From Elusimicrobiota bacterium (GTDB lineage Bacteria; Elusimicrobiota; Elusimicrobia; UBA1565): 42,927 nt of DNA. Positions 9,801 through 25,000 of this stretch are shown one piece after another (the stretch's first letter is position 1; the number at the start of each line of letters is the position of its first letter). The stretch is from NCBI GenBank assembly GCA_016218495.1, contig JACRDU010000022.1:1-42927 (forward strand), written 5' to 3'. A program made the position numbers and the translations under genes. The notes beneath the pieces are model-generated. The model worked only from the letters and a program-made list of their open reading frames with translations, was not told the DNA's origin and searched no databases.

Positions 9801-12200
9801 CTCATCGGTTTCACGGCCGTCGCCTCCGGCGGCCTGGGCGAGGCCTACAGCGCGAATTGGGCTCTGCCGGCCGGCGTGTTCACGGCCCTGCTCGAGGGCG
9901 TTACGAACTACATCACGGTGCAAGCCATAGACGGCAACGGCAACACCTCCGTCCGGACGGACGCCTTCTATGTACTCAAGGACACCACCGTCCCGACCGT
10001 CGACGACTTCCAGGGGGACGACGCGACGCCGCGCTCCGCGGGGGGGACGCTCTACAACGTCGACGCGCGCGACGCGGGCGCCGGCCTCGAGCGTTTCCAA
10101 TATAGCGTCAGCACGACGCCCCTGGCCGCAGACGGCGCCGTGCTCGCTTGGACCGACATCTCCCTGGCTGCGGGGACGACGCGCTACGCGGCCGACTGGT
10201 CCATTTCGTTCGCCCCGCTCCTCTCGGGGACCTCGAACTTCGTTTCGGTCAGGGCCATCGACCGGGCCGGCAGCACGACGACCGTCGTGGACGCCTTCTT
10301 CGTGCGCAAGGATACGACCGGCCCCAGCATCGCCGTCTCGACCCCCGCGGCGGGCTTCCCGTCGGTGCTGGGGCCCCTGTCGGGCACGGCGGCGGACCCT
10401 TCGGGCATCGCGTCCGTCCTGGTAGCCATTCAGTCAGGAGGGCTGTGGTGGGACGGCGCGCTGTTCGCCTCGGTTTCGCAGACCTGGCTGGCGGCTTCGG
10501 GAACGGCCGCCTGGACCTACGCCTCGGTCCCCGCATGGACCGACGGGACGGCCTACCGGGTCATCGCCCGGGCCAGCGACACCGCGGGAAACTTCTCGGC
10601 GCTGTACTCCACGAGGGATTTTACCCTCGATGCGTCTTCGCCGGCCGTCTCGCTCACCGTCCCCGCTCCCGAGGCGGCCCTGTCGAGCCTGGCATCCCTT
10701 TCGGGGACGGCCGCCGACGCCGGGGCGGGCTTGGCCTGGATCAGGGTCTCGCTACGGCGGGCCTCCGACGCGGCGTCCTGGGATTGGAACGCCTCGGGTT
10801 GGAGCGCTGCGGCCGTCTCGACGACGCCGGCCTTGGCGGCATCGTGGACCCTGCCGGTCAGCGAGGCGCTGCGTTCGAGCCTGGCCAACGGGGCCAGCTA
10901 TTTCGTCTCGGCCTGGGCCGCCGACCTGGCCGTCCCGGCGAACACCGGGGGGCTGGCTTCCGGCGCGACGGCCTTCCATTGGTCCGACTCCGTCCCGCCC
11001 GCGGCGGTCACGGACCTGACGGCGCTGAGCGGTTCGGCCCCGGCGAGCATCTCCCTGTCCTGGACGGCTCCCGGAGACGACGGCCAAGCGGGCACGGTCG
11101 CCACAGGGGAATTCCGGGTCCATTACTCCAGCGCCGAGCCGGTGGCCTTCTCCAGCGCTGCGGCGGGGGCGGTCCTCTCGACGGCGGCGGTGGTCCCGGG
11201 CTCGCGCCACGGGACGGTGCTGACAGGGCTCGAGGCGGGCGCCACCTATTTCCTGCGCGTGTTCTTCTCCGATGACTCCGGCAATTGGTCCACGCTCTCG
11301 AACGGCGCGACGGCGATGGCCACGCCCGAACCCTTCAACCAGATCTGGGGCCATGTGGTGAAGACCTCCAGCGAAGGCATCACCGGCGTGCTGGTGGAGG
11401 CCTACGACGCGGCCGGGACCCTGGTCTCGAGCACGAACACGGTCAACGATTCCAGCGGCACCTTCAAGCTCCGCAACATCCCGGCCGGGGCCTTCAAGGT
11501 CCAGGCCACCTGGACGGCGGGGGACATCACCAGCTCGGTCTGGCTCGACGGCATCGCCCAGGGTTCCGTCAATGTCGACTTCATTCTGCAAATCAATTAC
11601 ACTTTGGCCACGTTGACCGGGACGATCGGATCGCAGGCCGCGCAGGCGGCCTCGCCGGCGGGATTCCTGGCTCGGGCGGCCGAGGACGGCTTCCGGCAGA
11701 GCCGGGTCGAACTGCTCCGCAACGGCCGTTCCATCGTTGAAACGACCCCCGACCCCACCGGACGCTGGACCATCTCGAACCTGCTGCCGGGCCGCTACGC
11801 GGTCCGGGCCTTCAACGGGCTCGAATACACGGAGCCCCAGGACGTGGAGCTCGGGGAGGGAGAGACCCGCGAGGTCGTCTTGGTCTTCGACCCGCTGCCG
11901 GAGGCCCAGGTCTTCGCCTTCCCGAACCCGGCGCGCGAGCGCACCACGGTCCGCTTCGTCTCGGGGCTCCCTGGGCTCGAGGCCCAGGTCTCCATCTTCG
12001 ACATCGCGGGGGTCCTCGTGCGCGAGATCCCTGGCTCGTCCATGGTCCCCAAGCCCGGCGGCCTCTACCACGCCGCCTGGGATCTGGCCAATGACCGGGG
12101 CGAGGCCGTGGCCTCCGGAGTCTATCTTGTCATGGTGAAGGTGCGCGGCTCGAACGGACAATCCGGCAAGGTAATCAAGAAACTGGCGGTGGTGCGATGA
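843..12200 (+). CDS. Giant secreted FN3/Kelch adhesin-like protein with C-terminal sorting-like domain
   Basis: About 3,785 residues. Starting at CTG 843 gives a signal peptide with a basic N-region (KSLRRP), a hydrophobic core and an SASAA cleavage region; TTG 864 would remove the basic residues. From N to C: a linker; an FN3-like domain split by a Kelch propeller (nt ~1,540-2,340); a second split domain (~2,930-3,740); a run of FN3 repeats; a third Kelch-type propeller (~6,340-7,190); more FN3; a different propeller with repeated 'GDLRYAYWDGTAW' blades (~8,320-9,290); Ig-like domains; two carboxypeptidase-regulatory-like domains (~11,335-11,890). The last ~95 residues have FPNP, YD/FDIAG, SGVYLV and KKLAVVR signatures, like T9SS type-A sorting domains. 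It is presumably a surface or extracellular adhesin; the ligand is unknown. Its stop overlaps the next gene by ATGA. Confidence 0.9.
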   Translation: MKSLRRPLGPLLIAAILAAGGSASAAGLKSFGTTEVPDDLTSGSSGGQGMTDGTAEVEGAFGQAAAGDAASGSSEVEAGYFARAVTAPTNVSWDVWQSTLTLKWSDAAVPNPAGTLYTAEFSTAPDFSGTLRSSQTTGFLVTIATLAANSTHYARIMAEFGGTEVFAYVYASTVSAIEMPGTVYIDEVSSHAIVAAAFVGGTSFSSMTAGLSGTNIFSTAINDYGGWRKEGWTTLAPAPAMNARNQVAGAVLGGKFYTLGGSFAAATGDTQEYDPVSNAWTSRASMRPRNLPAAAVYGGRIYVIGGFDGSPLTANQRYDPESNAWTWLSSMPVAGRSGAAAAVAAGEIFVIGGNAGVGDVDTVQSYDPEADTWTARSPMPTARSGVRAVELGGMIYAIGGNGPLSANEVYNPGTGDWASRAPMISSRAAVALVRLGGKIIAAGGDLGGSESGDTDEYDAAADTWTRRASLMPKKRYNAAAGVLGGRLFVAGGWNTVSGSLSQTDLFDPGTTQKFAGLTANTQYFFTAKARNSAGVETAEAPTVSTYTLAMATMPAGALFSAVYTASVTVNWSDGGGGAGASFLVQASTMATFIPAASSMTTGALSATLTGLFTNARHYFRVRAYNSVGGSDLSWFVLGSTVTAIETPTNIYFDEISSTAITAAAYAPNPAFSSMTVGLSGTNIAIAGNYRGWHGEGWTTGLWPMTTARDGGAVEGLGGHIYVRGGNTGGATDANERYDPVTNSWSVATVLPAARYKSPGSAVAGGRIYVLGGANTLGNPVATNYEYDPEGNVWDTRTAMPTPRDHVGVAAVGGRIFAIGGADPARVALNAVYDVATDSWTMKAAMSGPRDGVRAVAVSGKVYVFGGSDGAASGKTEEYDPATDFWATKASMTVARWDFGAALLGGKIYALGGNNPGLVSVTEAYDPLSDTWTARSPIPTPRATPMTAQVGGRLYAIGGNNGPKLDTNERFDAGVASSFTALLPNTLYDFTAKARNSIGVETAETGLVSTYTYAAVPGQHANPFPQVFISSVQVQWLQNGNPSPATKYRVQASTASDFNAAAAGAVVDWDTAFSTYAVGLTGNTTYYFRVQARNVHGVQTGYLVMGQAATTPFPPAGAVSTFSAVFGTSLDLSWDANGNGSGTLYEAVVSTQPLPNALTNVSVTTRPAGALSVTMSPLISNATYYAAVRAISHSGAPTAFTALGSTLTRVNPPVTAVTTFTAVYQSSFTTAWGGNGNNVGTRYETVASTATPLDLADPANVPISTEPFGAEGADIAGLGANTTYYFFVAARARTGELTPYTALGSTVTSAAVPASAASTFTLVESSSLMVSWSANANALGTPYTAVLSTQTPLTLGLPGNKTVSTAPWGPPSAAMTGLLDNTTYFLFAAAFDRAGAPTAFTALGSTVTDAATPSEVYFDSVSSYSLVAVASGPAGGYTNLAVSSSAIGFSSGGVFQGWVSGSSVAVFSGLIPNSSYTFTAKARNQAGTETPESPSVSTYTLAAVPSSQTATFTAIWQSSAAFQWAAGGNPAGTEFEASASTDSLFGGGSSVFVSTWQVALSTAFSGLTVNATYYFRARARNFYGNPTAYQFLGSTVTGASVPAGPSGAASTFTAVGSTYMTVNWDANGNPAGTQYLARLSTAASFGGGAQVIEYAWTTLSSETFVNLSTDTVYYAAVRARNHALVESDFHFLGSTATPVAIPAASTAPFHSVGVTSVTVQWTSNGNPPSTLYEVLTATSTSFTGWGWSSGFGAMLSTTTPSLFGDTTYYWRVRAKGVSGTITDVLHLGSTVTLAAPPLTPALRSVGPSSVRLDWGTGGNREADALSAWAFDRQLPQGRERHGAAWVNGRVYVIGGIVSGVPSAEVWSASAAADGTLGVWRAEASLPAARESHAVAAFAGRLYVVGGFDGVPKKTVYWASVGTDGMLGDWFQGSDLPAARYKLAAAADGGWLYALGGDNGIVSQTAVYAAPLASDGAVGTWALAGNLPSARNSHAAAAAGGRVFVAGGLGAGVEASVWSVPLAGPGLGVWSTGADMGIAVFRHALVATPGALLSIGGHDGNAGVSTVQAAPVDAAGAVGAWSSRSLLNQARFGHAAVWDGRALLAFGGSDGAAALSSTELAAPAGAEYLAERARDTGFSTDYASSSWRGGSAAELGGLTPNTTYYFQVRSRSRTGAAGPPVSAGSTVTLAAAPLSVASTFTLVEAGSITVNWAGGGNPAGTEFLTALATATVSFGPLPSSGWTTALSSAVFGLNPNTTYYALAVARNSLQAVTPAVFLGSTVTLAAVPTGVDFDSVQAAGFRVFWSTAGNPAGTRYEAQASTVAAFTTLDSSTVTTSSSAVLSGLLGAATYYLRVRAFNWTGTAGAFSLTASTVTGQDLVAPGAATDLTANPTETPGTMTAAWTVSGDDGASGALTAGSRFYVQWAAAPAASVSWSTANAQVSASTGPVQPGARAGLLVTGLPVGSWVSMRVWTLDEVGNVSALSNAAYALVSPFTLSVLDGAGTDAGRGASLALDRTGNAHAAYTAGTAAQELRYMTSSGGIWSAAESPDPGTPSGEPVIAQGPGVPNIVFRNTATGQLRHARRAGAWAAAAVASGDLFPGGLAVDSTGYAHLSYYDRAAGDLRYAYWDGTAWQTEAVATAGDVGKFSSLALDPKSRPVVVYFDPANARLMFATRSVVGLWSGSVVDAGVGVGSTPVVALGPSGEPFVAYIDDGAKLLKAAAWDGTAWSVQIVDSFAGGASVGGAALDGAGNLLVSYHDASGGDLRLARWTGTGWSTGTIASLGSVGEDSDLAVDASGGLSMLFYDASAGDLKAASWAAGLAVPAGGNSRGSLGAPSAFSGTVASSNTVQWLWTDSAANEVGWRIYGGLSSTGPFSLVASTTALPGAAGLGTQFVYNETGLTSGTTYFRYAVAVTSGGAVMSPMAAAVPMNTADVTPPTITPNQSGDAVWRKADGATYDVDFVDPGGSGLASFSVKASTRSGGVGPDLIGFTAVASGGLGEAYSANWALPAGVFTALLEGVTNYITVQAIDGNGNTSVRTDAFYVLKDTTVPTVDDFQGDDATPRSAGGTLYNVDARDAGAGLERFQYSVSTTPLAADGAVLAWTDISLAAGTTRYAADWSISFAPLLSGTSNFVSVRAIDRAGSTTTVVDAFFVRKDTTGPSIAVSTPAAGFPSVLGPLSGTAADPSGIASVLVAIQSGGLWWDGALFASVSQTWLAASGTAAWTYASVPAWTDGTAYRVIARASDTAGNFSALYSTRDFTLDASSPAVSLTVPAPEAALSSLASLSGTAADAGAGLAWIRVSLRRASDAASWDWNASGWSAAAVSTTPALAASWTLPVSEALRSSLANGASYFVSAWAADLAVPANTGGLASGATAFHWSDSVPPAAVTDLTALSGSAPASISLSWTAPGDDGQAGTVATGEFRVHYSSAEPVAFSSAAAGAVLSTAAVVPGSRHGTVLTGLEAGATYFLRVFFSDDSGNWSTLSNGATAMATPEPFNQIWGHVVKTSSEGITGVLVEAYDAAGTLVSSTNTVNDSSGTFKLRNIPAGAFKVQATWTAGDITSSVWLDGIAQGSVNVDFILQINYTLATLTGTIGSQAAQAASPAGFLARAAEDGFRQSRVELLRNGRSIVETTPDPTGRWTISNLLPGRYAVRAFNGLEYTEPQDVELGEGETREVVLVFDPLPEAQVFAFPNPARERTTVRFVSGLPGLEAQVSIFDIAGVLVREIPGSSMVPKPGGLYHAAWDLANDRGEAVASGVYLVMVKVRGSNGQSGKVIKKLAVVR

Positions 12201-13921
12201 CCAGGACAATCCTCCGGTGTTTGGCGCCGCTGCTTCTCCTCGCGGGGCCGGCGGCGGCGGGGCTGATAACGCCGGGCGGCATCTTCGTGAAGGACCTGGC
12301 CGGCAACGACCGGAACTCCGTCTCGAACAACGAGCGCATCTCTCTGACGGTGAAGCTCAACAACGCCGCGGCGTCGGCGGACCGCATCCGCCACCTCTTC
12401 ACCATCGCCAACCCGGCCGGGTCGAACGTGTTCACCCATTCGGGGAATTCCGTGCCCGGGAGCGTGGGGAACTCCGCCAGCCAGGTGTCGGGCATCCCGG
12501 TCTCCCAGTTCTTCACCGGCCCGGGGGTCTACACCTTCACGGCCAACGCCACCCTCGACGCCCAGACCGTCAGCCAGACGCTGGCTTTCACCGTCTCCTC
12601 CCCCAACATCATCCTCATCTATCCGCCCAGCGGCGCCCAGAACGTGGCGGACAAGCCGCTGACATTCCGTTGGGTGTCCAGCGGCGCCAGCAAGTACCGG
12701 CTGACGGTGAGCGACGGGGCCGGGTTCACGCGCAAGGTCTTCGAGCAGACCACGTCGGGGGGGGAGAACTTCATGTCGTACTCGGAGGGCGGCGGCGCGG
12801 CGCAAGGGATCGGGGCGGGCCAGGTGCACTACTGGAAGGTCGAGGGCCTCGACGCGGCCGGGAACATCGTCTCCCAGAGCGAGGTCCCCTATTCCTTCAG
12901 CATGCTGGCGGGGGCGCTCACGCGGGACATGGCGATCACCTCGCTGGAGCCCACGGGGACGTCGGGCGGGAACATCTCGTTCGCCGTCCTCGCGGCGAAC
13001 CAGGGAGGCACGAACGAGAGCAACGTAACCCTGCGCTTCAGCCTGGGAGGGCTCCCGGCGGCTGGCTCCCCCGTCGTCATCGCCGGCATGGCTTCCGGAG
13101 AAACCAGGGAGTTCCAGTTCACGGCCGCGCTGCCGACCGACCAGGCCCAGAGCCTGGCCATAGCCTGCCTCGACTTCTTCGACGACAACGTGCCCAACAA
13201 CTGCAAGAGCCTCCAGGTGACCCGGCCGGCGGGGACTACGGCCGACACCGGCTTCGGCACGGGCTGCTCCAGCTCGAAGCCGGACCTCGTCGGCGCCATC
13301 CAGGAGAAGCTCAAGTCGATGGGCTACGGCGACTACGACACGGGCGACCTCGGGAACATGAGCCTCGACGACCTGTGCGCGCTCCTCTCTCAGCTCAACG
13401 AGAACCAGGTCCAGATCTCCTATACCGGGAACCCCGCGGCCGCCGCGCTCCCTCCTCCGGCCGCGCCCCCGCCCACGGCCTCCGCCCCGCCCCCGGCTCC
13501 GGCCGGGAGCGCCGCGCCGCTGCCGTCGGTGGAGCAGGAGCCCAACGCTATCGGGCGGGAGTTCGCGGGGGTCTCCCTGGGCAGCCTCGGCAAGGACGGG
13601 GTGAAGGACCTGGTGCGCGACAAGAAGGCGTTCAAGAGGCTTTGGAAGCGCCTCTCCAACGAGGACGCGCCGGACCTGGACTTCAAGAAGGTCATGGTCG
13701 TGGCGCTGGCGGCCGGCGATGAAGAGGCGACGGAGCGCTTCGAGGTGGAGGACGTGGTCGAGGGGCTCTCCGGGCTCGTCGTGCGCTATCGGGCGCACGG
13801 CGAGGGAGGCGCGGCGGCAGCGCCCAAGAAGAAGCGCGCCGGAGCCCCCTATATGCTGAAGGTGGTGCGCAGTTCGGGATTGGACGTGAAATTCGAGCAG
13901 GTAGGCGGGGAGGGGAGATGA
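12197..13921 (+). CDS. Secreted protein with CARDB-like and PrcB-like domains
   Basis: 574 residues. A clear signal peptide (MTRTILRCLAPLLLLAGPAAA) is followed by a beta-sandwich region (~25-135), an FN3-like segment (~135-235) containing YPPSGAQNVADKPLTFRW, and a CARDB-like domain (~240-345) with a DDNVPNNCKS turn. A short helical segment (~350-410) and a Pro/Ala-rich linker (~415-445) follow. The last ~130 residues (FKRLWKRL, DFKKVMVVALAAGD, then a Py-x-lKVV strand) resemble the C-terminal domain of PrcB, the dentilisin-complex protein of Treponema. The PrcB match is by eye and moderate. The gene overlaps its upstream and downstream neighbours by ATGA, so it is translationally coupled within the surface operon. 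It probably acts in the periplasm or at the cell surface. Confidence 0.8.
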   Translation: MTRTILRCLAPLLLLAGPAAAGLITPGGIFVKDLAGNDRNSVSNNERISLTVKLNNAAASADRIRHLFTIANPAGSNVFTHSGNSVPGSVGNSASQVSGIPVSQFFTGPGVYTFTANATLDAQTVSQTLAFTVSSPNIILIYPPSGAQNVADKPLTFRWVSSGASKYRLTVSDGAGFTRKVFEQTTSGGENFMSYSEGGGAAQGIGAGQVHYWKVEGLDAAGNIVSQSEVPYSFSMLAGALTRDMAITSLEPTGTSGGNISFAVLAANQGGTNESNVTLRFSLGGLPAAGSPVVIAGMASGETREFQFTAALPTDQAQSLAIACLDFFDDNVPNNCKSLQVTRPAGTTADTGFGTGCSSSKPDLVGAIQEKLKSMGYGDYDTGDLGNMSLDDLCALLSQLNENQVQISYTGNPAAAALPPPAAPPPTASAPPPAPAGSAAPLPSVEQEPNAIGREFAGVSLGSLGKDGVKDLVRDKKAFKRLWKRLSNEDAPDLDFKKVMVVALAAGDEEATERFEVEDVVEGLSGLVVRYRAHGEGGAAAAPKKKRAGAPYMLKVVRSSGLDVKFEQVGGEGR

Positions 13922-14667
13922 ATCAGAACGATGCCGGATTGAAGAGGGGCCTCGGGTCCCTGACCGTAGCGGCGCTGGGCGCGGTGCTGGCCGTCTGCAT
14001 CCAGGCGGCCCCGACGCCCCGGCCGGTGGCGGGGGTCGTCGTGGACCTGAAGGGAAAGCCGACGCTGAAGTCGGCGGCGGACGGCAAGAGCGCGCGCGTC
14101 GCGCTCAATCAGTTCGTCTACAACGGGGACTCGGTCAAGACCGGGACGGGGGAGGCGGCCGCCATCGCCTTCGTGGGCGGGGCCGAGATGCGCATCAACG
14201 CGGACTCGGAGTTCGTGATCGACTCCGGCGGCGGGGCCAAGCCCACCAGCGTCTCGACCAAGGTCGGGCAGGCCTGGACGCGCCTGCTGCACGGCAAGTC
14301 CCAGATGGAGGTCCATACGCCGTTGGCCGTCGCCGCGGTGCGCGGGACCGAGGCCGATGTCGACGTCGACCAGCGCCTGTCGGTCAAGGTCTATGAGGGC
14401 CTGGTCGACGTCCAGAACCAGTTCGGCTCGCAGTCCCTGCGCGCCGGCATGATGACGGAGGTCTCGGGAGCGGGTCAGGCGCCCCAGGCCCCCAAGACCA
14501 TGAAGCCCGAGGACTACGCCAAGTGGCAGGAAGACCTGAGCCCCAAGGACCTGGAGAACGCGCTCAAGAAGCTCGACGCCGAGGCAGAGCGCACCGGCGT
14601 CTTGAACCTCAAGTTCCGGGGCAAGGACGGGACGGAGAAGTCGTTGGACCTCAAGAAGGGGAAATAG
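13918..14667 (+). CDS. FecR-domain periplasmic protein
   Basis: 249 residues. The N-terminal signal/anchor sequence (residues ~10-31) is followed by a FecR domain (~35-185): VVVDLKGKPTLK, the GDSVKTGTGEAAAIAF motif, a MRINADSEFVID strand, and TPLAVAAVRGTEADVDV, which is the family's signature for the second half. The C-terminal ~60 residues are helical and charged. No anti-sigma N-terminal region or paired ECF sigma factor is visible, so this is not a classical FecR regulator. Free-standing FecR-domain proteins often occur with large surface proteins and LysM or outer-membrane proteins. It overlaps the upstream gene by ATGA and is followed after 3 nt by the outer-membrane protein gene. Confidence 0.85.
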   Translation: MNQNDAGLKRGLGSLTVAALGAVLAVCIQAAPTPRPVAGVVVDLKGKPTLKSAADGKSARVALNQFVYNGDSVKTGTGEAAAIAFVGGAEMRINADSEFVIDSGGGAKPTSVSTKVGQAWTRLLHGKSQMEVHTPLAVAAVRGTEADVDVDQRLSVKVYEGLVDVQNQFGSQSLRAGMMTEVSGAGQAPQAPKTMKPEDYAKWQEDLSPKDLENALKKLDAEAERTGVLNLKFRGKDGTEKSLDLKKGK

Positions 14668-14670
14668 CGC

Positions 14671-16584
14671 ATGGGGCTCCGGCCCGCAGCGATAGCCGCC
14701 GCGCTCCTCTTGGGGGGCGCGGCGGCCGCGCGGGCGTTCGACGCCGCCTCGCTGCAGTTCACCGTCCCGGCCCCGGACCCGGTGCAGGCGGGCGAGACGG
14801 TCGCGCTGCAGGCCTTGGCCGTCAACACGGGCGACACGGCCTGGGTTCCGGGCACCTACTACTGGGTGGGAGAGGTCTACGACCTCGAGGAGAAACTGGT
14901 CGGGCGCACCGAACCCGTCTCTCCCCAGGACACGGTGGCCGCGGGGGCCGTCGCGTCCATCTCCCTGCCGTTCCGCGTGCCTGAGACGGATACCGGCCGC
15001 CGGCTCTACCGCGTGCTGCTGGTCAAGGACTCCCAGACCCTGGTCGCGTCCCAGCTCAAGCCGTTCGTCATCGTCGAGAAGGCCGTGCCCGAGCCGCCGA
15101 AGAACGTCGACTACCGGGTCGAGGGGAACGTGACGGTCTCCTACAAGAACGGAAGCAGGGACGGCTGGGCCAAACACACCGGAGCCACGACGGTGAACAC
15201 GGTCGGCAAGGTCAAGGAGTCGTCTTACCTCTTCAACTCCTACATCCTGCACGAGACGGGCGACGTCTTCAACCCGTTCGTCATCCTCTTCACGTTCTAT
15301 GCGCCCTGGGGCACCGTCTACGGCGGCGACATCTCGCCCACCCTCAGCGAGCTGTCCGTGAACGGGCACGGGGCCCGCGGAGGCATGTTCGAGCAACGCC
15401 GGGGCGAATGGGACTGGCTGGTGCTCGGCGGCCAGACCGTGGAGAGCCAGGCGGGCACGGCCACGACCAACGGCCGGTTCGCGCGTTCCATCTACGCGGG
15501 CAAGGCCGGCCGGCGCCTGCCGTGGGACCTCTATTCCAGCGTGAACTACTTCTTGAGCTCGGACGAGACCGCCTCGCTGTCCACCGACCCGAAGTCGGCC
15601 AACTTCCGCGGGCCGACGCTCAAGCCGCAGAAGAACTCGGGCTACGGGCTGAGCCTGGCCTGGGAGCCGGCCCCTAAGCTCAAGTTCCTGGCGGACTGGC
15701 AGGCCAACACCTACCAATCCGACACCTCCAAGGCGGCGGTGAAGGACTCGGCCTACAAGGGCGAGGTGCGCTGGGAGCGCAAGCTCTTCAAGCTCAAGAC
15801 CTACATGCGCCGGGCCGGGCCCAACTTCGTGTCGTTCGGCTCCCCCGGCATCGTCGGCGACCGGCTGACATACGACGCGAACCTGGGGCTCTATCCGGCG
15901 TCCTGGTACACCCTGAGCCTGGCCGTCAACCAATACAAGGACAACCTGGCCGGCAACAAGGCCAAGGCGACGACGACCCAGCGCTTCGTCTCCGTCGGGA
16001 ACGCGTTCCAGTTCAAGACCGGGACGAACATCAGCGTCAACATGTCCCAGACCGCCGCGAAGGCCCAGCCGTCCACGGTGCTCGACAACCAGACCCAGAC
16101 CATGGGGCTCGGCCTCTCCCAGGCCATCGGCCGCAACAGCGTCTCGCTGAGCGCCCAGAACAGCCGCTTCAAGGACAAGAACAAGCTGGCCCACGACCTG
16201 GACACGAACACGGTCTCTTTGTCCTCGACCTTCTTCCTGCCCCGGAACATGGGAGCCGCCTTCGGGGTCTCGCAGTCCTCGACCAAGGACAAGAACGACG
16301 GCTCCAAGCGTTCGTCGTTGACGGTCTCCCCGAGCCTGTCCCAGAGGCTGGCGACGCGCTGGACGGCGCAGTACTGGGGGACGATGTCGAACACCAAGAA
16401 CACCTCCTTGCTCTTCCCTTCCGACACCACGACCACGACCCTGAACACGGAGTTCACCTGGGCGCAGAGCCAGGTGGCCAGCCTGACCTTCGGGGTGGGC
16501 TACAACAAGACCGACGACAAGCTCAAGCCCGCGAACAAGACCAGCGAGGTCCTGGTCTCGACCCGTTATTCCTATTCCTTCTGA
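14671..16584 (+). CDS. Predicted beta-barrel outer-membrane protein
   Basis: 637 residues with a signal peptide (cleavage near ARAFDA). Residues ~22-125 form an Ig-like domain. The remaining ~500 residues alternate short amphipathic strands and turns rich in Asn, Ser, Thr, Tyr and Lys. The protein ends in TRYSYSF, with aromatic residues and a terminal Phe as recognised by the BAM machinery. I do not recognise a specific family. It is the last gene of the + strand operon, so it may be the outer-membrane partner of the FecR protein and the secreted proteins. Its stop codon lies inside the 3' end of the convergent TPR gene (13-bp overlap), so no terminator separates the two operons. Confidence 0.8.
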   Translation: MGLRPAAIAAALLLGGAAAARAFDAASLQFTVPAPDPVQAGETVALQALAVNTGDTAWVPGTYYWVGEVYDLEEKLVGRTEPVSPQDTVAAGAVASISLPFRVPETDTGRRLYRVLLVKDSQTLVASQLKPFVIVEKAVPEPPKNVDYRVEGNVTVSYKNGSRDGWAKHTGATTVNTVGKVKESSYLFNSYILHETGDVFNPFVILFTFYAPWGTVYGGDISPTLSELSVNGHGARGGMFEQRRGEWDWLVLGGQTVESQAGTATTNGRFARSIYAGKAGRRLPWDLYSSVNYFLSSDETASLSTDPKSANFRGPTLKPQKNSGYGLSLAWEPAPKLKFLADWQANTYQSDTSKAAVKDSAYKGEVRWERKLFKLKTYMRRAGPNFVSFGSPGIVGDRLTYDANLGLYPASWYTLSLAVNQYKDNLAGNKAKATTTQRFVSVGNAFQFKTGTNISVNMSQTAAKAQPSTVLDNQTQTMGLGLSQAIGRNSVSLSAQNSRFKDKNKLAHDLDTNTVSLSSTFFLPRNMGAAFGVSQSSTKDKNDGSKRSSLTVSPSLSQRLATRWTAQYWGTMSNTKNTSLLFPSDTTTTTLNTEFTWAQSQVASLTFGVGYNKTDDKLKPANKTSEVLVSTRYSYSF

Positions 16585-17447
16585 GGGGAGGAGCCGAGCC
16601 GGTTCAGGAACCCTTCGAGCTCGGCGTCTTTCTCGGCATTGAGGTCCTGGGCCTTCTTCCAGAACTCGCGGGCCTTCGCCTCGTTCTGCAGAGCGTAGTA
16701 GGCCGAGCCCAGCCGCTTGAGGGCGGTGACGTCTTCCGGGTTGATGCGCACCACGCGCTCGAGCAGGGCGGCGGCGCGGGCATAGCGCCCGTCGTAGATG
16801 AGCCCCAGCGCCGTGTCGGTCTTGTACTGCAGGACCCCCGCGCCGGGCGGCACGGCGTCCTGGGACAGGGAGGGGGCGTCGGTCAGCAGAAGGGCTATGA
16901 GGCGCGAGAAGCGGACCTCGTCGGGCTCGAGCTCCCGGGCCCAGCGCAGGCCGTCGTAGGCCAGGTCCAGCTCGTCTTTGGGGCCGAGGTAGCCGGGCAG
17001 GCTGCGGGTCACCGCCTGCCAGGCCTTCGTGGCGGTGGAGGCCTGCGGGACGACGAAGGAGACCCGGTCCAGGCGCGCCTGCAGGAGGTTGTAGTACGGA
17101 TGCATGGGGTCCGCTTCGAGGAGCGGCTGCAGGGCCACCAGGGCGTCGGCATAGCCGCCTTCGGCGATGCGCTGGTGGACCGTCCGCTGACGCTCCTTGT
17201 CCCGCTTGTCTATCTCCGCGCGCGCCACCTCGATCCACTTCTCCGCGCTGCTCTGGTCCGGGGCCTTGTTGAGGACCTCCCGCCAGACGCCGATGGCCCG
17301 GCTGTACTCCGCCTTCTTGTAGTGCTGCATGGCGGTCTCGTAGAGGATGGAGAGCTCGGCCGAGCGGACCTTCTGGGCGTCCTCCGGGGCCGAGGAGGCG
17401 CCCGCGGCGGGCAGGGCCAGGAGCGCCGCGAGCAGGCCCGCGTTCAC
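16572..17447 (-). CDS. Exported TPR-repeat protein of the rotary-motor operon
   Basis: 291 residues from GTG at 17,447, which overlaps the stop of the upstream MotB-like gene as GTGA. The start is supported by the signal peptide that follows it (AGLLAALLALPAAGASSA). A longer in-frame extension upstream reads as low-complexity nonsense over the MotB gene and is rejected. The body consists of helical TPR-like pairs: residues ~35-75 (YETAMQHYKKAEYSRAIGVWREVL), a central region, and ~210-280 (AARAAALLERVV, ALKRLGSAYYALQNEAKAREFWKKA). It is probably a periplasmic scaffold for the motor proteins encoded with it. TPR lipoproteins accompany several Mot/Tol/Exb and gliding systems; which partner it binds cannot be seen. 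Confidence 0.8.
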   Translation of the reverse strand: MNAGLLAALLALPAAGASSAPEDAQKVRSAELSILYETAMQHYKKAEYSRAIGVWREVLNKAPDQSSAEKWIEVARAEIDKRDKERQRTVHQRIAEGGYADALVALQPLLEADPMHPYYNLLQARLDRVSFVVPQASTATKAWQAVTRSLPGYLGPKDELDLAYDGLRWARELEPDEVRFSRLIALLLTDAPSLSQDAVPPGAGVLQYKTDTALGLIYDGRYARAAALLERVVRINPEDVTALKRLGSAYYALQNEAKAREFWKKAQDLNAEKDAELEGFLNRLGSSPQKE

Positions 17448-18106
17448 GAGGACCCGTCCCGGACCAGGCTGAGCTCGATGCGCCGGTTGCGGGCGCGGCC
17501 TTGCGCGGTGGCGTTGTCGGCCGCGGGGTGGAACTCCCCGTAGCCGCGGGCCCGGAAGCGCCCGGCCTGCAGGCCCTGCGCGCGGAAGAACTCGATGACG
17601 GCGAACGCCCGCGCCGCGGAGAGCTCCCAGTTGGTCTTGTGGCGGCCGCCGACGATGGGCAGCGGGTCGGTGTGCCCGGAGACCAGCACCGGGTTCGGGA
17701 CGCCGGAGAGCAGCTTGGCCAGCGGGGTGAGCGCGCGCAGCCCCTCGGCCGACAACCGGTCCGAGCCCTCCGCGAAGAGCACCGGGGCGGGCAGGGTGAG
17801 GTGGATGTAGCGGCGCGTGACGCGCACCCCCATCTCGTCGAGGGTCAGGCCGGCCATGGCCTTTTCCAGCTCGACGGCGAGCTTGGACTCCGTCAGGCGC
17901 TTTGCCGCGGCCGCGGCGTCCGAGGGGCGGGCCATCTCGGCCTGGACCTGGCTCAGGGCCTTGTCGGCGGCGGCGCCGTGCCTGGCGTAGGAGGTCACGA
18001 AGAGGGCCAGGAAGAGGATCATCAGGTTGCTCATGAGGTCCGCGTACGGGACCATCCAGAGCCCGGGGTTGAGCTCCTGAGGGACCCGTTCGGCGTCGCG
18101 GGCCAT
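17444..18106 (-). CDS. MotB-like stator protein, second copy (OmpA/MotB family)
   Basis: 220 residues. The start ATG overlaps the upstream stop by 1 nt (TGATG). One N-terminal membrane helix (~15-37) reads WMVPYADLMSNLMILFLALFV; Asp23 occupies the place of the proton-binding Asp (D32 in E. coli MotB). A helical linker leads to a C-terminal OmpA-like peptidoglycan-binding domain with SGHTDPLPIVGG, NWELSAARAFAVIEF and NRRIEL motifs. It differs in sequence from the neighbouring MotB-like protein, so the operon supplies two non-identical B subunits for one MotA. A heterodimeric stator plug is possible, or alternative stators. Confidence 0.88.
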   Translation of the reverse strand: MARDAERVPQELNPGLWMVPYADLMSNLMILFLALFVTSYARHGAAADKALSQVQAEMARPSDAAAAAKRLTESKLAVELEKAMAGLTLDEMGVRVTRRYIHLTLPAPVLFAEGSDRLSAEGLRALTPLAKLLSGVPNPVLVSGHTDPLPIVGGRHKTNWELSAARAFAVIEFFRAQGLQAGRFRARGYGEFHPAADNATAQGRARNRRIELSLVRDGSS

Positions 18107-18771
18107 CAGTCCTCCTCCGGGCGCAGCACGAGCAGCTCCACGCGCCGGTTCGCCGCCCGTCCCTCGGGGGTGGCGTTGGACGCGGAGGGGAGGAACTCCC
18201 CGTAGCCCGCGGCCACGAGTCGTCCGGGCGCCAGCCCTTCGGCCGCCAAGCGCTCCAGCACGGCATGGGAACGGGCGACGGAGAGCTCCCAGTTGGAGCG
18301 GTATTGGCCGCCGAGGACGGGCCTGTCGTCGGTATGGCCTTCGACCACGACCTCGTGCGGCGCGCCCTTGAGGGCCCGGGCGATGACGCCGAGCGGGAGG
18401 GCCGCCCCGGGCTCGAGGACGGCCCCGGCCGTCGGGAAGAGCATCGCGTCGCGCAGGCGGACCCGCACGCCGCGCTCGGTCCTCTGCAGCTCCACCTCGG
18501 CCGCCAGCCCGGCGGCCTCCAGCGCGCGGCGCAGGGCCGTCTCGGGGTCGGCGGAGGGTTCCGGGGAGGCGACGGGGGGCGCGGGGACGACGGCCTCCTC
18601 CGCGCGGAAGGCGCGCTCGAATGACGCCTTGGCCTCGGCGCCCTGCAGGGTGAGGGCGAACATGGCCAGGAAGAAGAGCATCAGGTTCGTCATCATGTCG
18701 CAGAGCACGATCAGCCACAGCGGGTTCTCTTCCATGCTCTCGGGGGAGACCCGGTGGAGGAAGGGAATCAT
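18106..18771 (-). CDS. MotB-like stator protein, first copy (OmpA/MotB family)
   Basis: 221 residues. The membrane helix (~17-42) contains LWLIVLCDMMTNLMLFFLAM, with Asp25 as the likely ion-binding residue. A Pro/Ala-rich linker (~55-75) precedes a helical region and the OmpA-like domain (~95-218) with EGHTDDRPVLGG, SNWELSVARSHAVLERL and NRRVEL, the residues expected to bind diaminopimelate of peptidoglycan. It begins 6 nt after the MotA stop. The presence of the OmpA domain argues for a MotB-type anchored stator and against ExbD/TolR. Confidence 0.88.
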   Translation of the reverse strand: MIPFLHRVSPESMEENPLWLIVLCDMMTNLMLFFLAMFALTLQGAEAKASFERAFRAEEAVVPAPPVASPEPSADPETALRRALEAAGLAAEVELQRTERGVRVRLRDAMLFPTAGAVLEPGAALPLGVIARALKGAPHEVVVEGHTDDRPVLGGQYRSNWELSVARSHAVLERLAAEGLAPGRLVAAGYGEFLPSASNATPEGRAANRRVELLVLRPEED

Positions 18772-18777
18772 GCGGGC

Positions 18778-19563
18778 TCAGGCCGGGACGCGATAGCCCT
18801 TGGCGCCGCCCTGGCGCAGCTGGAAGGAGAGGTAGGCCTCGAGCTTCTTGGCGATGAGCCAGGGGACCTCGCCGCGCACCAGGCACAGGGTCCCCTTGGC
18901 GATGAGCTCGCGGGCCAGGACCTCCTCGTCGGAATAGAAGTTCAGTTTGCTGGCGATGGGGAGGAACAGGAAGTTGGCCGCGAAGATGCCGTAGAAGGAC
19001 GCCGTCATCGCCACGGCCATCGACGCGCCCATCTCGTCGGGCTTGGTGATGTTGCGCAGGACGGCGACGACGCCGATCAGGGTGCCCAGGAGCCCGAAGA
19101 TGGGGGAGTAGGTGCCGGCGGCCTTGAAGATGCCGCTGACCTGGAGATGGCGGTGGCGCGTGGCCACGATGTCGCGCTCGCAGCGGTCGTTGATGGTCTC
19201 CTCGTCGAGCCCGTCGAGGACCATCTGCAGGCAGTCGCCCATGAACGGGTGCGGGAGCCCGCGCAATTCCGCGGCCAACGCGTCGGTCCCGTTGCGGCGC
19301 GCCGATTCGGCCAGGCGCACGAAGGTGCTGATGAGGAGGTTCGCGGGCGGGCGCTTGGGGGGGAAGAGCATCATCTTCACGGCGTTGGGGATGTGCTGGA
19401 TGGCCGACCAGGGGTAGCTGATCATGATCGACCCGACCGTGCCGCCGAAGATGAGGACGAAGGCCTCGAAGTTCAGCAGGTACTTCTGCATGTCCCCGTG
19501 GATGATGACGAACAGCACGACCCCGCCGCCGATGGCCGTCCCGAGCACCGTCATCAGGTCCAT
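18778..19563 (-). CDS. motA: MotA-like stator channel protein
   Basis: 261 residues, the size of flagellar MotA, with four predicted membrane helices (~8-23, ~30-50, ~145-170, ~182-205). It keeps the channel prolines in TYSPIFGLLGTLIG (Pro154) and FLPIASKL (Pro202), matching Pro173 and Pro222 of E. coli MotA. The cytoplasmic loop contains RLAESARRNGTDAL. By eye, Arg89 aligns with torque residue Arg90, while the position of Glu98 is Ala97, with Glu99 nearby. ATG starts 3 nt after the FliF-FliG fusion stop. The presence of rotor and stator genes in one operon supports a rotary function rather than a Tol/Exb energiser. Confidence 0.9.
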   Translation of the reverse strand: MDLMTVLGTAIGGGVVLFVIIHGDMQKYLLNFEAFVLIFGGTVGSIMISYPWSAIQHIPNAVKMMLFPPKRPPANLLISTFVRLAESARRNGTDALAAELRGLPHPFMGDCLQMVLDGLDEETINDRCERDIVATRHRHLQVSGIFKAAGTYSPIFGLLGTLIGVVAVLRNITKPDEMGASMAVAMTASFYGIFAANFLFLPIASKLNFYSDEEVLARELIAKGTLCLVRGEVPWLIAKKLEAYLSFQLRQGGAKGYRVPA

Positions 19564-19566
19564 GGG

Positions 19567-20979
19567 CTAGACCTGCGCTCCGGAGGCGGCGGGCGGGGGG
19601 AGCGCCGCCGGGGCGTCGTCGGGGCGCTGCAGGCGGACGGCCCCCTCCTTGACGAGCTGGGCCAAAGTGGTGAGGACGCGCTTCTGCTCCGAGGCCAGGC
19701 GGTCCCCGGAGAGCTCGGCCGCCAGCTCGATCTCCTGGCCCAGCCAGGCGCCCAGGCCGGCGGTGAGCTTCGGCATGACGCGGCCCTTGAGCTCCTGGTC
19801 CGAACGCAGGACGGCGGCCAGGCTGCGGATGGGGACGCGGCGGGAGAGGGTCTTGAGGTCGTTGGCGTCGAGCCAGGCGATGTCCTCCAGGCGGACGATG
19901 CGCCGCCCCAGGCGGGCCGCCGCCTCGGGGTCCTCTCCGCGCACGGCGTCCAGCATCTCCTGCTGCAGGGCGGCAGGGGCCTGGTCGAGGATCTCGGCCA
20001 GCTTGTCCTCGCCGCCCATCAGATAATCGATGCGCGCGCGCAGGGAATCCTCGATCTGGCGCACATTCTCCTCTTCGAGCTGGACCACCTTGCTCATGGC
20101 GCGGGCGACGTCCTGACGGGTCCCCAGGGGGAGGGCGCCGAGGACCTCTGTGGCCAGGACGGCCGGGAGATAATGGACGATGACGGCGGCGGTCTTGCCG
20201 GGGGCCTTGCGCAGCAAGAATTTGAGCATGGGGACGTGCCGTTCGCGCAGGAAGGAGAACGGCAGGTCTTCGTCTTCGGGCGGCGGCAGGGCCTCGCGCG
20301 GCTGGGGAGCGGCCTCGAGGGGGGGAGGAGGGCCGGTGTTGTCGACGGCGGCCCCGGGGATGGCCTGGACGGACTGGGGAGTGGAGCGGGCCATCCCGAC
20401 CTCGCGCAGCACGCCCAGCAGGGGGCGCAGGAAGCGTCCGTAGAGCAGGCCGACCCCCAGTACGGCGGCGAAGAGCCAGAGCAGGGAGACCACGGGGGCG
20501 GGCATCACCCAGTCCCGGGCGGCCGGGGCCGGCACGCCGACGGCGGCCTTGAGGGGCATCCGCTTGACCGTGACGGTGTCGCCCCTGGAAGACTCCAGCC
20601 CCAGCACGGATTCGGCGGTGCTCTGGACCAGGACGTCGGTGTCCGTCGGGACCGATTTGTCGAGGATGACCGTGGCGGAGATGCCCTTCACCATGGCCCG
20701 GTTGAGGGAAGCCAGGTCCTTGGCGATGGGCGTCTTGTCGAGGGGGACGCCGGGCAGGAGCTCGGTGATGCCGGACCTGGCCTCGGACGCCAGCGACAGG
20801 TCCACGATGACCAGCACATCGTCCGAGGCGAGGACCTTGCGCAGCACGCCCTGCAGGCGTGCCTCCTGGGCGCTCTCGAGCTGGACCTCCGTCTCCAGGT
20901 CTTGAGAAGCCTGGGCGCCGTGGGCGCAGGGCGCTCCCAAGGGCAACAGGGCCGCGGCGAGGGCTAGGTGTCGGGACAT
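19567..20979 (-). CDS. FliF (C-terminal part)-FliG fusion rotor protein
   Basis: 470 residues. A signal peptide (1-22) replaces the first membrane helix and the first ring-building domains of FliF. Residues ~30-145 match the C-terminal periplasmic part of FliF: a DVLVIVDLSLASEA strand, ISATVILDKSV, then SRGDTVTVKRMPL, the highly conserved end of that region. One membrane helix (~158-183) is followed by a Pro-rich cytoplasmic linker (~197-240). Residues ~248-345 resemble the FliG middle domain (AAVIVHYLP, ATEVLGALP, DKLAEILDQ). Residues ~346-450 resemble the FliG C-terminal domain (EDPEAAARLGRRIVRLEDIAWLDANDLKTL, EQKRVLTTLAQLVKEGAV). By eye, torque-helix charges of FliG (R281, D288, D289, R297) align with G, Q, E and S here. 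It is first in the motor operon, behind a strong promoter. Confidence 0.85.
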   Translation of the reverse strand: MSRHLALAAALLPLGAPCAHGAQASQDLETEVQLESAQEARLQGVLRKVLASDDVLVIVDLSLASEARSGITELLPGVPLDKTPIAKDLASLNRAMVKGISATVILDKSVPTDTDVLVQSTAESVLGLESSRGDTVTVKRMPLKAAVGVPAPAARDWVMPAPVVSLLWLFAAVLGVGLLYGRFLRPLLGVLREVGMARSTPQSVQAIPGAAVDNTGPPPPLEAAPQPREALPPPEDEDLPFSFLRERHVPMLKFLLRKAPGKTAAVIVHYLPAVLATEVLGALPLGTRQDVARAMSKVVQLEEENVRQIEDSLRARIDYLMGGEDKLAEILDQAPAALQQEMLDAVRGEDPEAAARLGRRIVRLEDIAWLDANDLKTLSRRVPIRSLAAVLRSDQELKGRVMPKLTAGLGAWLGQEIELAAELSGDRLASEQKRVLTTLAQLVKEGAVRLQRPDDAPAALPPPAASGAQV

Positions 20980-21118: not shown

Positions 21119-22012
21119 TCAGAAGCGGGCCGACAGCGACAGCCTCTGGGCATCGCCCAGGTCTCCGAAGGGCGTGAAGGAATAGTCCGCCCCGAAGGAC
21201 TTGAGCCTAAATCCCAGTCCCGCCCCAAGGCCCCCCAGCAACCCCATGGACGGCGAGCGGTTGCCCGAGTTGGCGGCGTAGCCGGCGCGTAGCGAGAGTG
21301 CCCCCAGGAAGGCGTACTCGGTGCCCAAAGCCAGCGAAGTACGCTTGTCGTGGGGCTCGTGACGGATGTCGAGGGCTAGGCCAAGCACGCCGGCCAGCCG
21401 GTAGGACGCCCCCGCCGAGACCATGAGCGGCAAGGCGTCCTCCTGCTCCAGGAACTTCATGCCCTGGCCGAGGTTCCGGACGGCCAGGCCGATGCTCAGC
21501 GGCCGTCCAGGAAGCTCCTTGCGCGCGCCTAGGTCCACCGCCACGGCCTGGGCCGAGTAGGGACCGATCTGGCTGCGCAGGAACTTGAGCGTCCCCCCGG
21601 CGGAGTACCCAGAGAAGCTCTTCGCCATCGTCACGCCGTAGGCGGCGTCCGAGGCGTCGAAGGACCCCGCGCGAGACCTGTCGGTGGCGCGCGCCTCGAT
21701 GCTCCCCACAGAGAGCCTCACAGCAGACACGCCCAAGCTCCCATACCTTGTGGGCGCCCCGAAGGCCAAGACGTCAAAGCGCGTCCCCGCCAGCCATTCG
21801 GCATGTCCCGCCGAGAGTTCGCGCCGTGCGAGCTTTGCCAGGCCCGCCGGGTTGAAGAAGACGCTGTCGGCCGAGCCCGCCGAGGCGCTCATGGCCCCGC
21901 CCAAAGCCGCCGAGCGGGCGGAGGGGTCTATTTTGAGGAAGGCAGCTACAGAGTCGAGCGAGGCCGCTGATGCAGTCACTCCAAACATCAAACAGAGGAA
22001 GATCGCCTTCAT
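21119..22012 (-). CDS. PorV/PorQ-family (UPF0164) outer-membrane protein
   Basis: 297 residues. The signal peptide (to ~16) is followed by the family signature: DPSARSAALGGAMSASAGSADSVFFNPAGLAKL, then repeated beta-barrel strands (YGSLGVSAVRLS, LSIGLAVRNLGQ, GVLGLALDIRHEP, LSLRAGYAANSG), ending LSLSARF with a terminal Phe. In Bacteroidota, PorV is the outer-membrane shuttle that receives type IX secretion cargo by its C-terminal domain; PorQ is related. The gene overlaps the stop of the giant cargo-like protein gene by ATGA, which fits a carrier encoded with its substrate. None of the other T9SS core genes (PorK, L, M, N, Sov) is in the window. Confidence 0.85.
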   Translation of the reverse strand: MKAIFLCLMFGVTASAASLDSVAAFLKIDPSARSAALGGAMSASAGSADSVFFNPAGLAKLARRELSAGHAEWLAGTRFDVLAFGAPTRYGSLGVSAVRLSVGSIEARATDRSRAGSFDASDAAYGVTMAKSFSGYSAGGTLKFLRSQIGPYSAQAVAVDLGARKELPGRPLSIGLAVRNLGQGMKFLEQEDALPLMVSAGASYRLAGVLGLALDIRHEPHDKRTSLALGTEYAFLGALSLRAGYAANSGNRSPSMGLLGGLGAGLGFRLKSFGADYSFTPFGDLGDAQRLSLSARF

Positions 22013-25000
22013 CGGACGACCGCCATTTTCCCAACACGCTTGATGGGGGCCTGCCCCGCCTTCTCCGCCGTCACGACGTAAAGATAGACCCCAGAGGGAA
22101 TGTGCCCGGCCCAGGAATACTCGTAGGCGAAGTGGGCGCCCATATCATCGTTCACCACCGACGGGCTGCCGTCCAAGGTCGTTTCGTGCACGGGAGTGCC
22201 CGCTATGTCGTAGATGCGGATGGTCACCCTGTCGGCCTTGCCCACGGCCACATGGATGGTGGGCTTCTGGCCGCCCACGGCGGGGTTGGGGAAGGCGTAG
22301 ACGGAGCGCAAAGAGAAGGTGGCCTCAGGGTCCGCCAAGAGGGACAAGGACCGGACGGGCGCCAGCACCTGATAGAGCGAGAAATGCGAGGTCTGTGCGC
22401 TGACGGTGTGGGCGTCCGCGTCGACGCGGGAAGCCAACGCCTCCCAAGCGCCCCTCTCCGCGTTCCAGTAATGGATTTTGAGTTCTTCCGGACGAAGGCC
22501 AGAAGCGAGGCCCGGGTCGTAGGGTAAGATGATGGTGACGGGCAGGGCGAAGAGCTGGCCGTGCGGTCCGAACTCGCGCGGGGCGGAAGCCGCGGTCAGG
22601 TTCTGGGAGGCCCGTTCGGCGACGCCGGCCTCGGGAGCCACCGCCACCGAGATGTCGAGGTCCTGGGCCAAGGCCCCTGCGGGGACTTCTACCGCCGCTC
22701 CGCCCGGCTCTTCAACGAAGCCGCCCTCCACGCGCCCCACCCGGGCCACCACGGGTTCCGCGCTCGCAGGCTCGGAGGCGTCCGAGGCCCGGAACCCGCC
22801 CTTGGGCTGGGTCATGGCGATGAGGACGGGGGTTCCAGGCAGGCCGAAGCCGGTGATTTGGTCTTCGTTGCGGTTCGCCACCAAGAGCTGTCCGTCGGCG
22901 GTGAAGACGGCCTGGGCGGGTTTGTGCAAGTCCGCTTGACCGAAGACAGCCAGCTCGCTCCCCAACGCCGCGTCGAAGGTTCTCACGCGGCCCGCCTTGG
23001 CATCCACCACGGCCAGGCAGGCGCCCGAGGGCGAAACGGCCAGGCCTTCGGGCCGCTCGAAGCCGGGGATGGTCTGGACGGGGTTGAAGTCGGCGTCGTA
23101 GCGCAGGACGCGCCTACCCTTCGAGTCGGCCACCCAGAACGCGCCTGAGCTTTCAGCCGCCAAGGCCATGGGGCGGGCTTCGTCTTCTTCCTCATCGTCG
23201 TCGTGCTCGCCGGCCGCTACGGTGGGCAGCGCCAGGCGCCTGAGCAGCGCTCCCGAGTCAGAGAAGACGACCACCTCCCCGGAATGCGCGTCGGCCACCA
23301 GGACTTTGCCTGGGACCAAGGCCACGGCCACGGGCTTCTCGAGGGATTTCTTCCCGCCGAATTCGAGCACTACCGTCCCGCTGGGGCTGAGCTTGACGAC
23401 TCTCTTGTTGTTCCGGTCCGCCACGAAGATGCTGCCCGAAGCATCGACCGCCAGGCCGCTGGGCTTGTTGAGCTTGAGGGAGCGGCGCTGGTCGCCGAAG
23501 GAGGCCAGGAGATTCCCCGAGGCATCGTAGACACGGACCAAGTCATGGCCCGTATCCGCCACATAGACCCTGTTGGGGGCCCAGGCCACGCCGCGCGGCT
23601 TGTTCAAGGCCTTCTTGCCGCCCAGGGCCAAGGTCTTGCTGGGCGCGCCGGCCTGCAAGAGCAGGGAAGCCGCAGCGGCGTTCTCGACGAGGTCCGAGGC
23701 CGTCAAGGTCAGCTCGAAGCTGCCCGTCTTGCCCGTGGCGTCCCAGACCCCGAGCAGGCCGTCGGTGTCCTGCGTGCCCGAGCCCAGCAGGGCCGGGCCG
23801 TCCTTGAGCGACCAACTCGCCATGTGGGCGTCGCTCACCGTGCCGCGCACCTGGACCCTGCCCTGGGCCAGGCGGCACAGGCCGGGCTCGTCGGGCCTGG
23901 GGAAGGCGAAGGCCGCGGCGGGCGGGGTGGCGTCGAGCACCAAAGCGGCGGCCTTGGGAGCCTCGGCGTTGCCGGCCCGGTCGGTGGAGAAGTACTGGAG
24001 CGCCTTGGCGCCGTCGGGGCCGGGCACCGCGAAGGTGCCCGAGTAGACCGTGTACTCTCCCAGTCCGAAGCGATAGCGCATATCGGCGACGCCGCTGGGG
24101 GCGCCCGACTCGGCACTGTCCTCGGCCGACAGCGACAGCGCGCTGGCCGCCGAGACCAAGGTCGAACCGTCGGGCAGACCGGCCTGGGGAGTCCCGACGA
24201 GGAGGGTCGTCTGAGGAGGGAGCGTGTCGCCCACGGCGACGCGCAGCACGAGCCCGGCGGCGTTGCCCAGGCGGTCGGCCGCGCTCAGCGCCAGCGTATG
24301 CAGCCCCGGTCCCAGCAACAGCCCTGCCGGGACCACGACGGGATTCCCGTCCAGGACGGCCGTGAAGGACGCCAAGCCCGAAGCGGCCCCGGCCGCCTCC
24401 GGGTCGGTTGCGCTCAGCGTCACGGTGACCGTGGCCGACAGGGTGCCGAAGCCGCCGGGGACGCTGAAGGTGCTCTGGTCGGCCGAGAATGTCAGGGTGG
24501 GGGGGGGTCCCGTCCACGAAGACGCGGGCTTCCTTGAGGGGTTCGGCGTTGCCGCTCCTGTCCAGGGAATGGAATTCAAGGTGGATGTCCCCCTCGGGCA
24601 AAGCGAAAGGCGCGTTATAAACGGTTTCCGGACCGACCCCTCCTCTATATCGGGTGGCGGCCACGCCCGAGGGCGTCCCCCCGAGGGGGGCTAGGTCCTG
24701 GGCGCTCAGGACCCCCGAGGAGCCTCCAACGGCGAACAGCCTGCCTTCGAGCACGGCGCTGGAGCCCAGGACAGAGAAGGCCGTGAGGGGAGGGGCGGTG
24801 TCGCGCACCATGGGGGCGTAGAGGGAGGTGTGGAGGATTTCGCCCGAGACCTGGTAGAGCCCGCTCTCTAGAAGGGCCAGGGTCTGGTTGAAGATGGAGG
24901 CAGTGGACCAGTTCATGGTCTGGATGTCGTAGGTATAGATGGCCACGGAGGCCGAGTCGACGAGGACCGGGTCGAAAGTGAAGCTGATGAGGGCGGGGGC

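Follow-up and report, generated by a model that had tools for sequence, protein, structure and literature searches.

What would a bacterium do with the rotor and the stator of a flagellar motor when the rest of the flagellum is missing? This question is raised by a window of 42,927 nucleotides, the whole stretch of DNA analysed, from an Elusimicrobiota genome (4.15 Mb, 95% complete). Between positions 16572 and 20979 of its minus strand, genes for a FliF-FliG fusion (FliFG), MotA, two MotB-like proteins (MotB1 and MotB2) and a TPR protein are all present, and no rod, hook or filament genes are seen within the window. With a probability of about 0.6, we propose that these genes belong to a nine-gene cell-surface machine in which a FliFG ring and MotAB stators act on a giant surface protein.

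The motor operon

The FliFG gene (19567..20979), recognized from its sequence, Pfam and predicted structure, is followed after a 3-nt gap by the gene of the stator subunit MotA (18778..19563) and after a further 6 nt by that of MotB1 (18106..18771). The MotB2 gene (17444..18106) overlaps MotB1 by 1 nt, and the gene of the exported TPR protein (16572..17447), which has a GTG start, overlaps MotB2 by 4 nt, all five being on the minus strand. The gaps, the two overlaps and the identity of the five genes agree with a sequence-only reading of the locus. Pfam matches exceed the curated cut-offs for FliG_M and FliG_C, MotA_ExbB, OmpA and MotB_plug (in both MotBs) and TPR. The search of related genomes that this reading had called for found the same five-gene order in three families, so the set cannot be ascribed to chance, and the TPR gene keeps its place as the last of the operon across orthologous loci. 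The single promoter proposed by the same reading is unconfirmed, since a promoter scan upstream of the operon found none. By eye, a TTGAAA-17 nt-TATATA arrangement is visible at 21043-21015 on the minus strand, outside the rule of the scan.

A putative minimal rotor made of one protein

The FliFG chain consists of a signal peptide, a periplasmic RBM3-like domain (residues 20-144 of the model), one transmembrane segment (161-197) and the M and C domains of FliG (246-445). Its AlphaFold model (pLDDT 74) has an N-terminal alpha-beta domain (residues 20-141), a transmembrane helix and a FliG-like helical part. In structure comparisons, residues 239-450 matched FliG (Z 14.9) and residues 20-144 the S-ring domain RBM3 of FliF (Z 11.2), other S-ring chains aligning at 2.4-3.0 A across about 100 residues; residues 363-449 matched the FliG of a MotAB-FliG complex (Z 11.6). 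The predicted architecture is therefore RBM3-TM-FliG(MC), a putative minimal rotor. The FliF part of the window protein is below threshold in Pfam (YscJ_FliF_C, E=0.015), and the same match reaches 1.5e-6 in orthologues and 1.6e-8 and 1e-7 in paralogues. Both sequence and predicted structure lack RBM1, RBM2 and the first transmembrane segment of FliF, the approximately 140 residues that precede the membrane helix being entirely taken by the signal and RBM3. Against the FliG equivalog TIGR00207, the protein scores 51.7 bits for a cut-off of 226.7 and thus does not classify as a canonical FliG; as the match begins only at position 126 of 338, the FliF-binding domain FliG_N is missing.

The stator-contact face was compared among 12 window-type FliFG sequences, with residue numbers that we take to be those of E. 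coli FliG. The R281 position is always Gly and R297 is lost, the D289 position is Glu in 12/12 and the K264 position is basic in 8/12. From these residues, the contact between FliG and the stator would be changed, not erased. A rotor of this fused kind is mechanically credible, because a FliF-FliG fusion in Salmonella leaves the cells motile, with a chemotactic defect, and FliF-FliG rings form in non-motile hosts (PMC6079021). Assembly of a FliFG ring is nevertheless not guaranteed, given that RBM1, RBM2 and the first FliF transmembrane segment are missing.

The stator proteins

The nearest solved relatives of MotA are flagellar MotA and PomA, and the conserved prolines of TM3 and TM4 are retained. 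MotB1 combines a plug and transmembrane segment carrying the ion-carrying Asp (CDMMTN) with an OmpA-type peptidoglycan-binding domain; MotB2 has the same layout, with its channel Asp within YADLMSN and its own OmpA domain. The locus thus encodes what defines a flagellar-type stator: a MotA/PomA-like MotA_ExbB protein, and MotB proteins with plug, channel Asp and OmpA domain. MotB1 and MotB2 form distinct orthologous groups in nearly all genomes, as if the stator needed both.

Absence of a flagellum

No FlhA is found in the host genome, and only 1/56 genomes of the order and 3/246 of the phylum have one; FliM and FliN are absent from all 56 genomes of the order, host included, the search controls being positive in both cases. 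FliG_C, for its part, occurs in 48/56 genomes of the order and 97/246 of the phylum; among the genomes that lack it, those of one family, small in size (1.3-1.7 Mb), are prominent. Published work describes the phylum as devoid of flagellar machinery and its isolates as non-motile (PMC11257099; also PMC7031533). Two genomes, G087 and G229, do contain flagellar clusters, with separate FliF (518 and 495 aa) and FliG (355 and 320 aa). G229 has in addition, on another contig, an intact FliFG operon of the type named type 1 below, which indicates that the flagellum and the FliFG machine are distinct. In G008, FlhA is paired with MotB, and no other flagellar genes are evident on its 16-kb contig.

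These data bear on one alternative, namely that a flagellum whose other genes lie elsewhere in the host genome takes its rotor and stator from this operon, as the domain content of the operon (that of fliF, fliG, motA and motB) would allow. Neither FlhA nor FliM/FliN is found in the 95%-complete host genome or in others of the genus, and the flagellated relatives carry fliF and fliG of their own. The sequence-only reading had held that a complete flagellar gene set lacking only its own fliF, fliG and motAB would overturn its proposal; the flagellated genomes have separate fliF and fliG. The idea of a flagellar spare part is rejected, its chance being negligible, and it is refuted, save in the case that the missing 5% of the host genome and of its relatives hides a set of flagellar genes. 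A non-flagellar use of the rotor and stator is on the contrary well supported, FlhA and FliM/FliN being absent genome-wide and nearly order-wide.

A convergent surface operon

On the plus strand, four genes run towards the motor operon. The first (864..12200) encodes a giant surface protein of 3778 aa with Kelch propellers, fn3 domains and carboxypeptidase-like repeats, and a weak C-terminal match to a sorting domain of the FlgD_ig/Por_Secre_tail kind (type IX-like). Its stop overlaps the start of the second gene (12197..13921), which encodes an exported protein with a weak CARDB match and is a conserved member of the operon. An exported FecR-domain protein identified by Pfam (13918..14667) and an exported protein of 637 aa (14671..16584) follow. 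From its sequence character, the last is probably an outer-membrane beta-barrel: it has an N-terminal Ig-like stretch and ends in SF, which is conserved in orthologues. It has no Pfam match, a profile search of solved structures returned only noise, and a single-sequence structure model (pLDDT 29) was uninformative. The TPR and barrel genes overlap tail to tail by 13 bp.

To evaluate this linkage, window-type FliFG was called by a profile score above 220 bits in the 56 genomes of the order. It is present in 15 of them and the barrel-like protein in 16; both occur together in 15, the barrel alone in one (G026) and neither in 40 (Fisher p 9.8e-13, a value that treats related genomes as independent and is not corrected for phylogeny). 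The barrel is the strictest co-occurring partner of the motor. Within the third family the presence of rotor and barrel is patchy, so that the two must have been gained or lost together several times. Rotor and barrel share one contig in 13 of the 15 genomes and are always convergent there, their tails ranging in most genomes from a 35 bp overlap to a few hundred bp apart and reaching 1-8 kb in four (G012, G006, G007 and G011). In G005, the barrel contig bears MotA, MotB1, MotB2 and TPR, and in G003 it stops at the barrel gene. Upstream of the barrel, orthologous loci have the FecR, CARDB and giant protein genes, and the C-terminal region of the giant is conserved in those that extend that far.

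This conserved convergent linkage, together with the co-occurrence of both operons, indicates that motor operon and surface operon make up one nine-gene module; a direct contact of motor and barrel would be a further step, as co-regulation can also produce such linkage. The five genes first read as a compact unit are therefore real as a set and incomplete as a machine, being half of the module. The proposed connection with surface proteins stands through the giant-CARDB-FecR-barrel operon and falls for the neighbours that had been named for it: a PorV/UPF0164-like outer-membrane protein gene upstream of the motor operon (21119..22012, minus strand) and a second giant surface protein gene with Kelch, Big_13 and fn3 domains (23543..33649, minus strand) are not conserved beside it and were rejected as fixed partners.

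The proximity of a giant protein calls for a force-free explanation to be weighed, in which the MotA/MotB ion channel, by sensing or exploiting the ion gradient, governs whether the giant is retained or released, FliFG being a static scaffold. SiiAB, which resembles MotAB, controls the retention of a 595-kDa adhesin in Salmonella in this sense (PMC6272769). MotAB-type channel genes here likewise adjoin a giant surface-protein gene, and the torque charges of FliG are only partly retained. However, the FliG M and C torque domain is retained in several classes throughout the phylum, which is hard to explain without turning, and SiiAB, to our knowledge, functions with neither FliG nor FliF; genes of a type I secretion system are not seen next to the locus. 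We consider such gating unlikely.

A family of sister motors

Besides the window operon, the host genome contains three further FliFG-MotA-MotB clusters, so that the operon has at least three paralogous sisters in the same genome. In the type-1 cluster, the order is PorV/TPR, FliFG-TPR, a long coiled-coil protein, FlbD, MotA, MotB and a lipoprotein. Searched with the type-1 rotor, named genomes gave 42 loci, all from Elusimicrobia/Elusimicrobiota or from plain 'bacterium' entries. A PorV-family gene lies directly upstream in 37/37 of the loci with room upstream, and downstream the coiled-coil gene is found in 24/24 and MotA in 23/24; the type-1 PorV protein belongs to its family above NCBI's cut-off. 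Pairing with surface proteins thus recurs in the motor family. In a second class, a histidine kinase is fused to FliF-FliG (L017, 814 aa) and PorV is preceded by a giant surface gene; a third class is found on C109. The FliG_C matches on C33 come from three tiny tandem ORFs and were set aside as something else.

In a phylogeny built on the M and C domains of FliG, with a midpoint root and several long branches, type 1, the window type, the kinase type together with the C109 type, and others form separate supported groups, and the phylum's flagellar FliG stands apart from FliFG (support 95/96). This tree bears on a further explanation, in which the genes are left over from a flagellum that was lost, and persist through drift or serve only as a scaffold in the membrane. 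Flagellar parts were once present in the phylum, as the FlhA of three genomes and the flagellar cluster of at least two attest. Against a remnant, many lineages retain intact FliFG, MotA and MotB, which have multiplied into several conserved operons with fixed partners, FliFG has been fused to kinases, and the flagellar FliG forms the separate group just described, with the same root and branches; drift or scaffolding is thus very improbable.

The PorV genes that precede the sister operons recall type IX secretion, and the motor could be imagined in place of GldL and GldM, driving the export of C-terminal-domain proteins through a SprA-like pore with PorV. The weak Por_Secre_tail/FlgD_ig matches at the C-termini of the giants are in agreement with this, and a divergent SprA-like protein of 1855 aa exists, with matches in 8/56 genomes. 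In the host genome, no SprA/Sov was detected with a profile or with the protein of a relative, a search of limited sensitivity to divergent forms, and SprA was found in none of the 8 genomes of the family, which all have FliG_C. With the pore not found, a type IX-like energiser is quite improbable.

Proposed mechanism and comparison with known machines

In the nine-gene machine that we favour, FliFG subunits would assemble into a ring of a single protein in the inner membrane, the RBM3 domains forming a periplasmic S-ring and the fused FliG domains a cytoplasmic torque ring. FliM, FliN, FliG_N and the export gate would then be dispensable, because FliFG alone would make both rings. MotA, MotB1 and MotB2 would form ion-driven stators, anchored to peptidoglycan via their OmpA domains and turning against the FliG ring. 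Across the periplasm, the TPR, FecR and CARDB proteins could pass the force of the turning ring on to the barrel in the outer membrane, and the barrel so driven may move, export, expose or retain the giant Kelch/fn3 protein, its presumed cargo. Surface adhesion or gliding is the outcome that we favour, gliding, export and retention all being compatible with the sequence.

Compared with the flagellar motor, of which the type-1 sister operon retains even FlbD, FliF is here cut to RBM3 and one transmembrane segment and fused to FliG; FliG_N, FliM, FliN and the export gate are missing, and two MotBs are present. Genes of surface proteins are paired with the motor, and in a sister class the rotor is fused to a histidine kinase. 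The Agl-Glt machinery of Myxococcus (AglR, AglQ, AglS and Glt) comprises MotA-class and MotB-class proteins, a TPR protein, outer-membrane proteins and an adhesin. The module resembles it in having one MotA-class and two MotB-class genes, and in the association of a periplasmic TPR protein, outer-membrane proteins and a surface adhesin. As far as we know, Agl-Glt has neither FliG nor FliF, and AglQ and AglS have no OmpA domain; both MotBs here, in contrast, bear OmpA domains and are not of the AglQ/AglS type. With the type IX and gliding motor (GldL, GldM, PorV, SprA), the family shares an ion-driven 5:2-type stator linked to PorV-family proteins of the outer membrane and to large surface proteins whose C-terminal domains are type IX-like, but MotAB and FliG take the place of GldLM. 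SiiA/SiiB-SiiE of Salmonella likewise ties a MotAB-like proton channel genetically to a giant surface adhesin; however, Sii has no rotor, and SiiE leaves by a type I system. We know of no use of FliG in Agl-Glt, in T9SS/GldLM or in SiiAB. A role as stator is documented for the Agl-Glt proteins (PMC13104615).

Significance

According to a survey published in 2025, 11% of non-motile species possess FliG, FliM or FliN, proteins of the rotor, and no proteins of the filament; the survey posed the use of half a motor as an open question, its text being silent on Elusimicrobiota (PMC12199754). In the literature that we searched, with incomplete coverage and an earlier mention being possible, we came across no account of a non-flagellar FliG machine, of a kinase-FliG fusion or of gliding in Elusimicrobia. 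The consistent pairing of the motor gene set with genes of outer-membrane and giant proteins points to an undescribed machine in which a flagellar motor is put to work at the cell surface. We regard it as a variant of the flagellar motor, and the chance that it constitutes a separate family of machines is substantial. More tentatively, and at slightly less than an even chance, such non-flagellar rotary machines may exist phylum-wide, in which one-protein FliF-FliG rotors, each with its own MotAB stators, turn and thereby move or deploy giant proteins of the cell surface, in classes with TPR, fused histidine kinase or PorV-type partners, and serving gliding or surface-protein transport.

The fusions of kinase and rotor hint at a direct control of the rotor without CheY and FliM. 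To the question of what half a motor is for, the family offers a testable answer: a rotor and a stator that persist without the export gate, have multiplied and are linked to outer-membrane proteins and giant surface proteins. It bears on the origin or reuse of the flagellar motor, and on the way in which members of a phylum said to have neither flagella nor motility (PMC11257099) may act on surfaces.

Flagellar genes and other rotor-like proteins in Elusimicrobiota

Flagellar gene clusters are present in a few Elusimicrobiota (L135-L138 in the related genomes G087 and G229, and L139 in G254), and they contradict the published claim that there are none in the phylum (PMC11257099). The genome G008, which has the window-type module, also contains a MotB-FlhA gene pair (L116:2889-5881), and no further flagellar genes were evident on the 16-kb contig carrying the pair. 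Polysaccharide genes and a CpaB-like gene adjoin the gene for a divergent, 1855-aa SprA-like protein (L115:5176-10743), which has matches in 8 of the 56 genomes of the order.

Within the own genome, three very small ORFs of 85, 115 and 85 aa lie in tandem among cytochrome genes on contig C33 (L016:9723-10687), each scarcely exceeding one isolated FliG C-terminal domain. On contig C69, a divergent FliG_C protein truncated by the contig end (L019:1-2237) is followed by TPR and coiled-coil proteins. Since no MotA or MotB gene adjoins the orthologous cluster in G006 (L130), the protein may resemble a rotor but lack a stator of its own.

Finally, histidine kinase domains, FliF-RBM3 and FliG are joined in a single protein of 814-835 aa at five loci (L017:8429-10873, L110, L111, L112 and L128), where MotA and MotB adjoin the fusion gene and a response-regulator-like gene is often also nearby. 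It is possible that in this fusion a sensor acts directly on rotor control.
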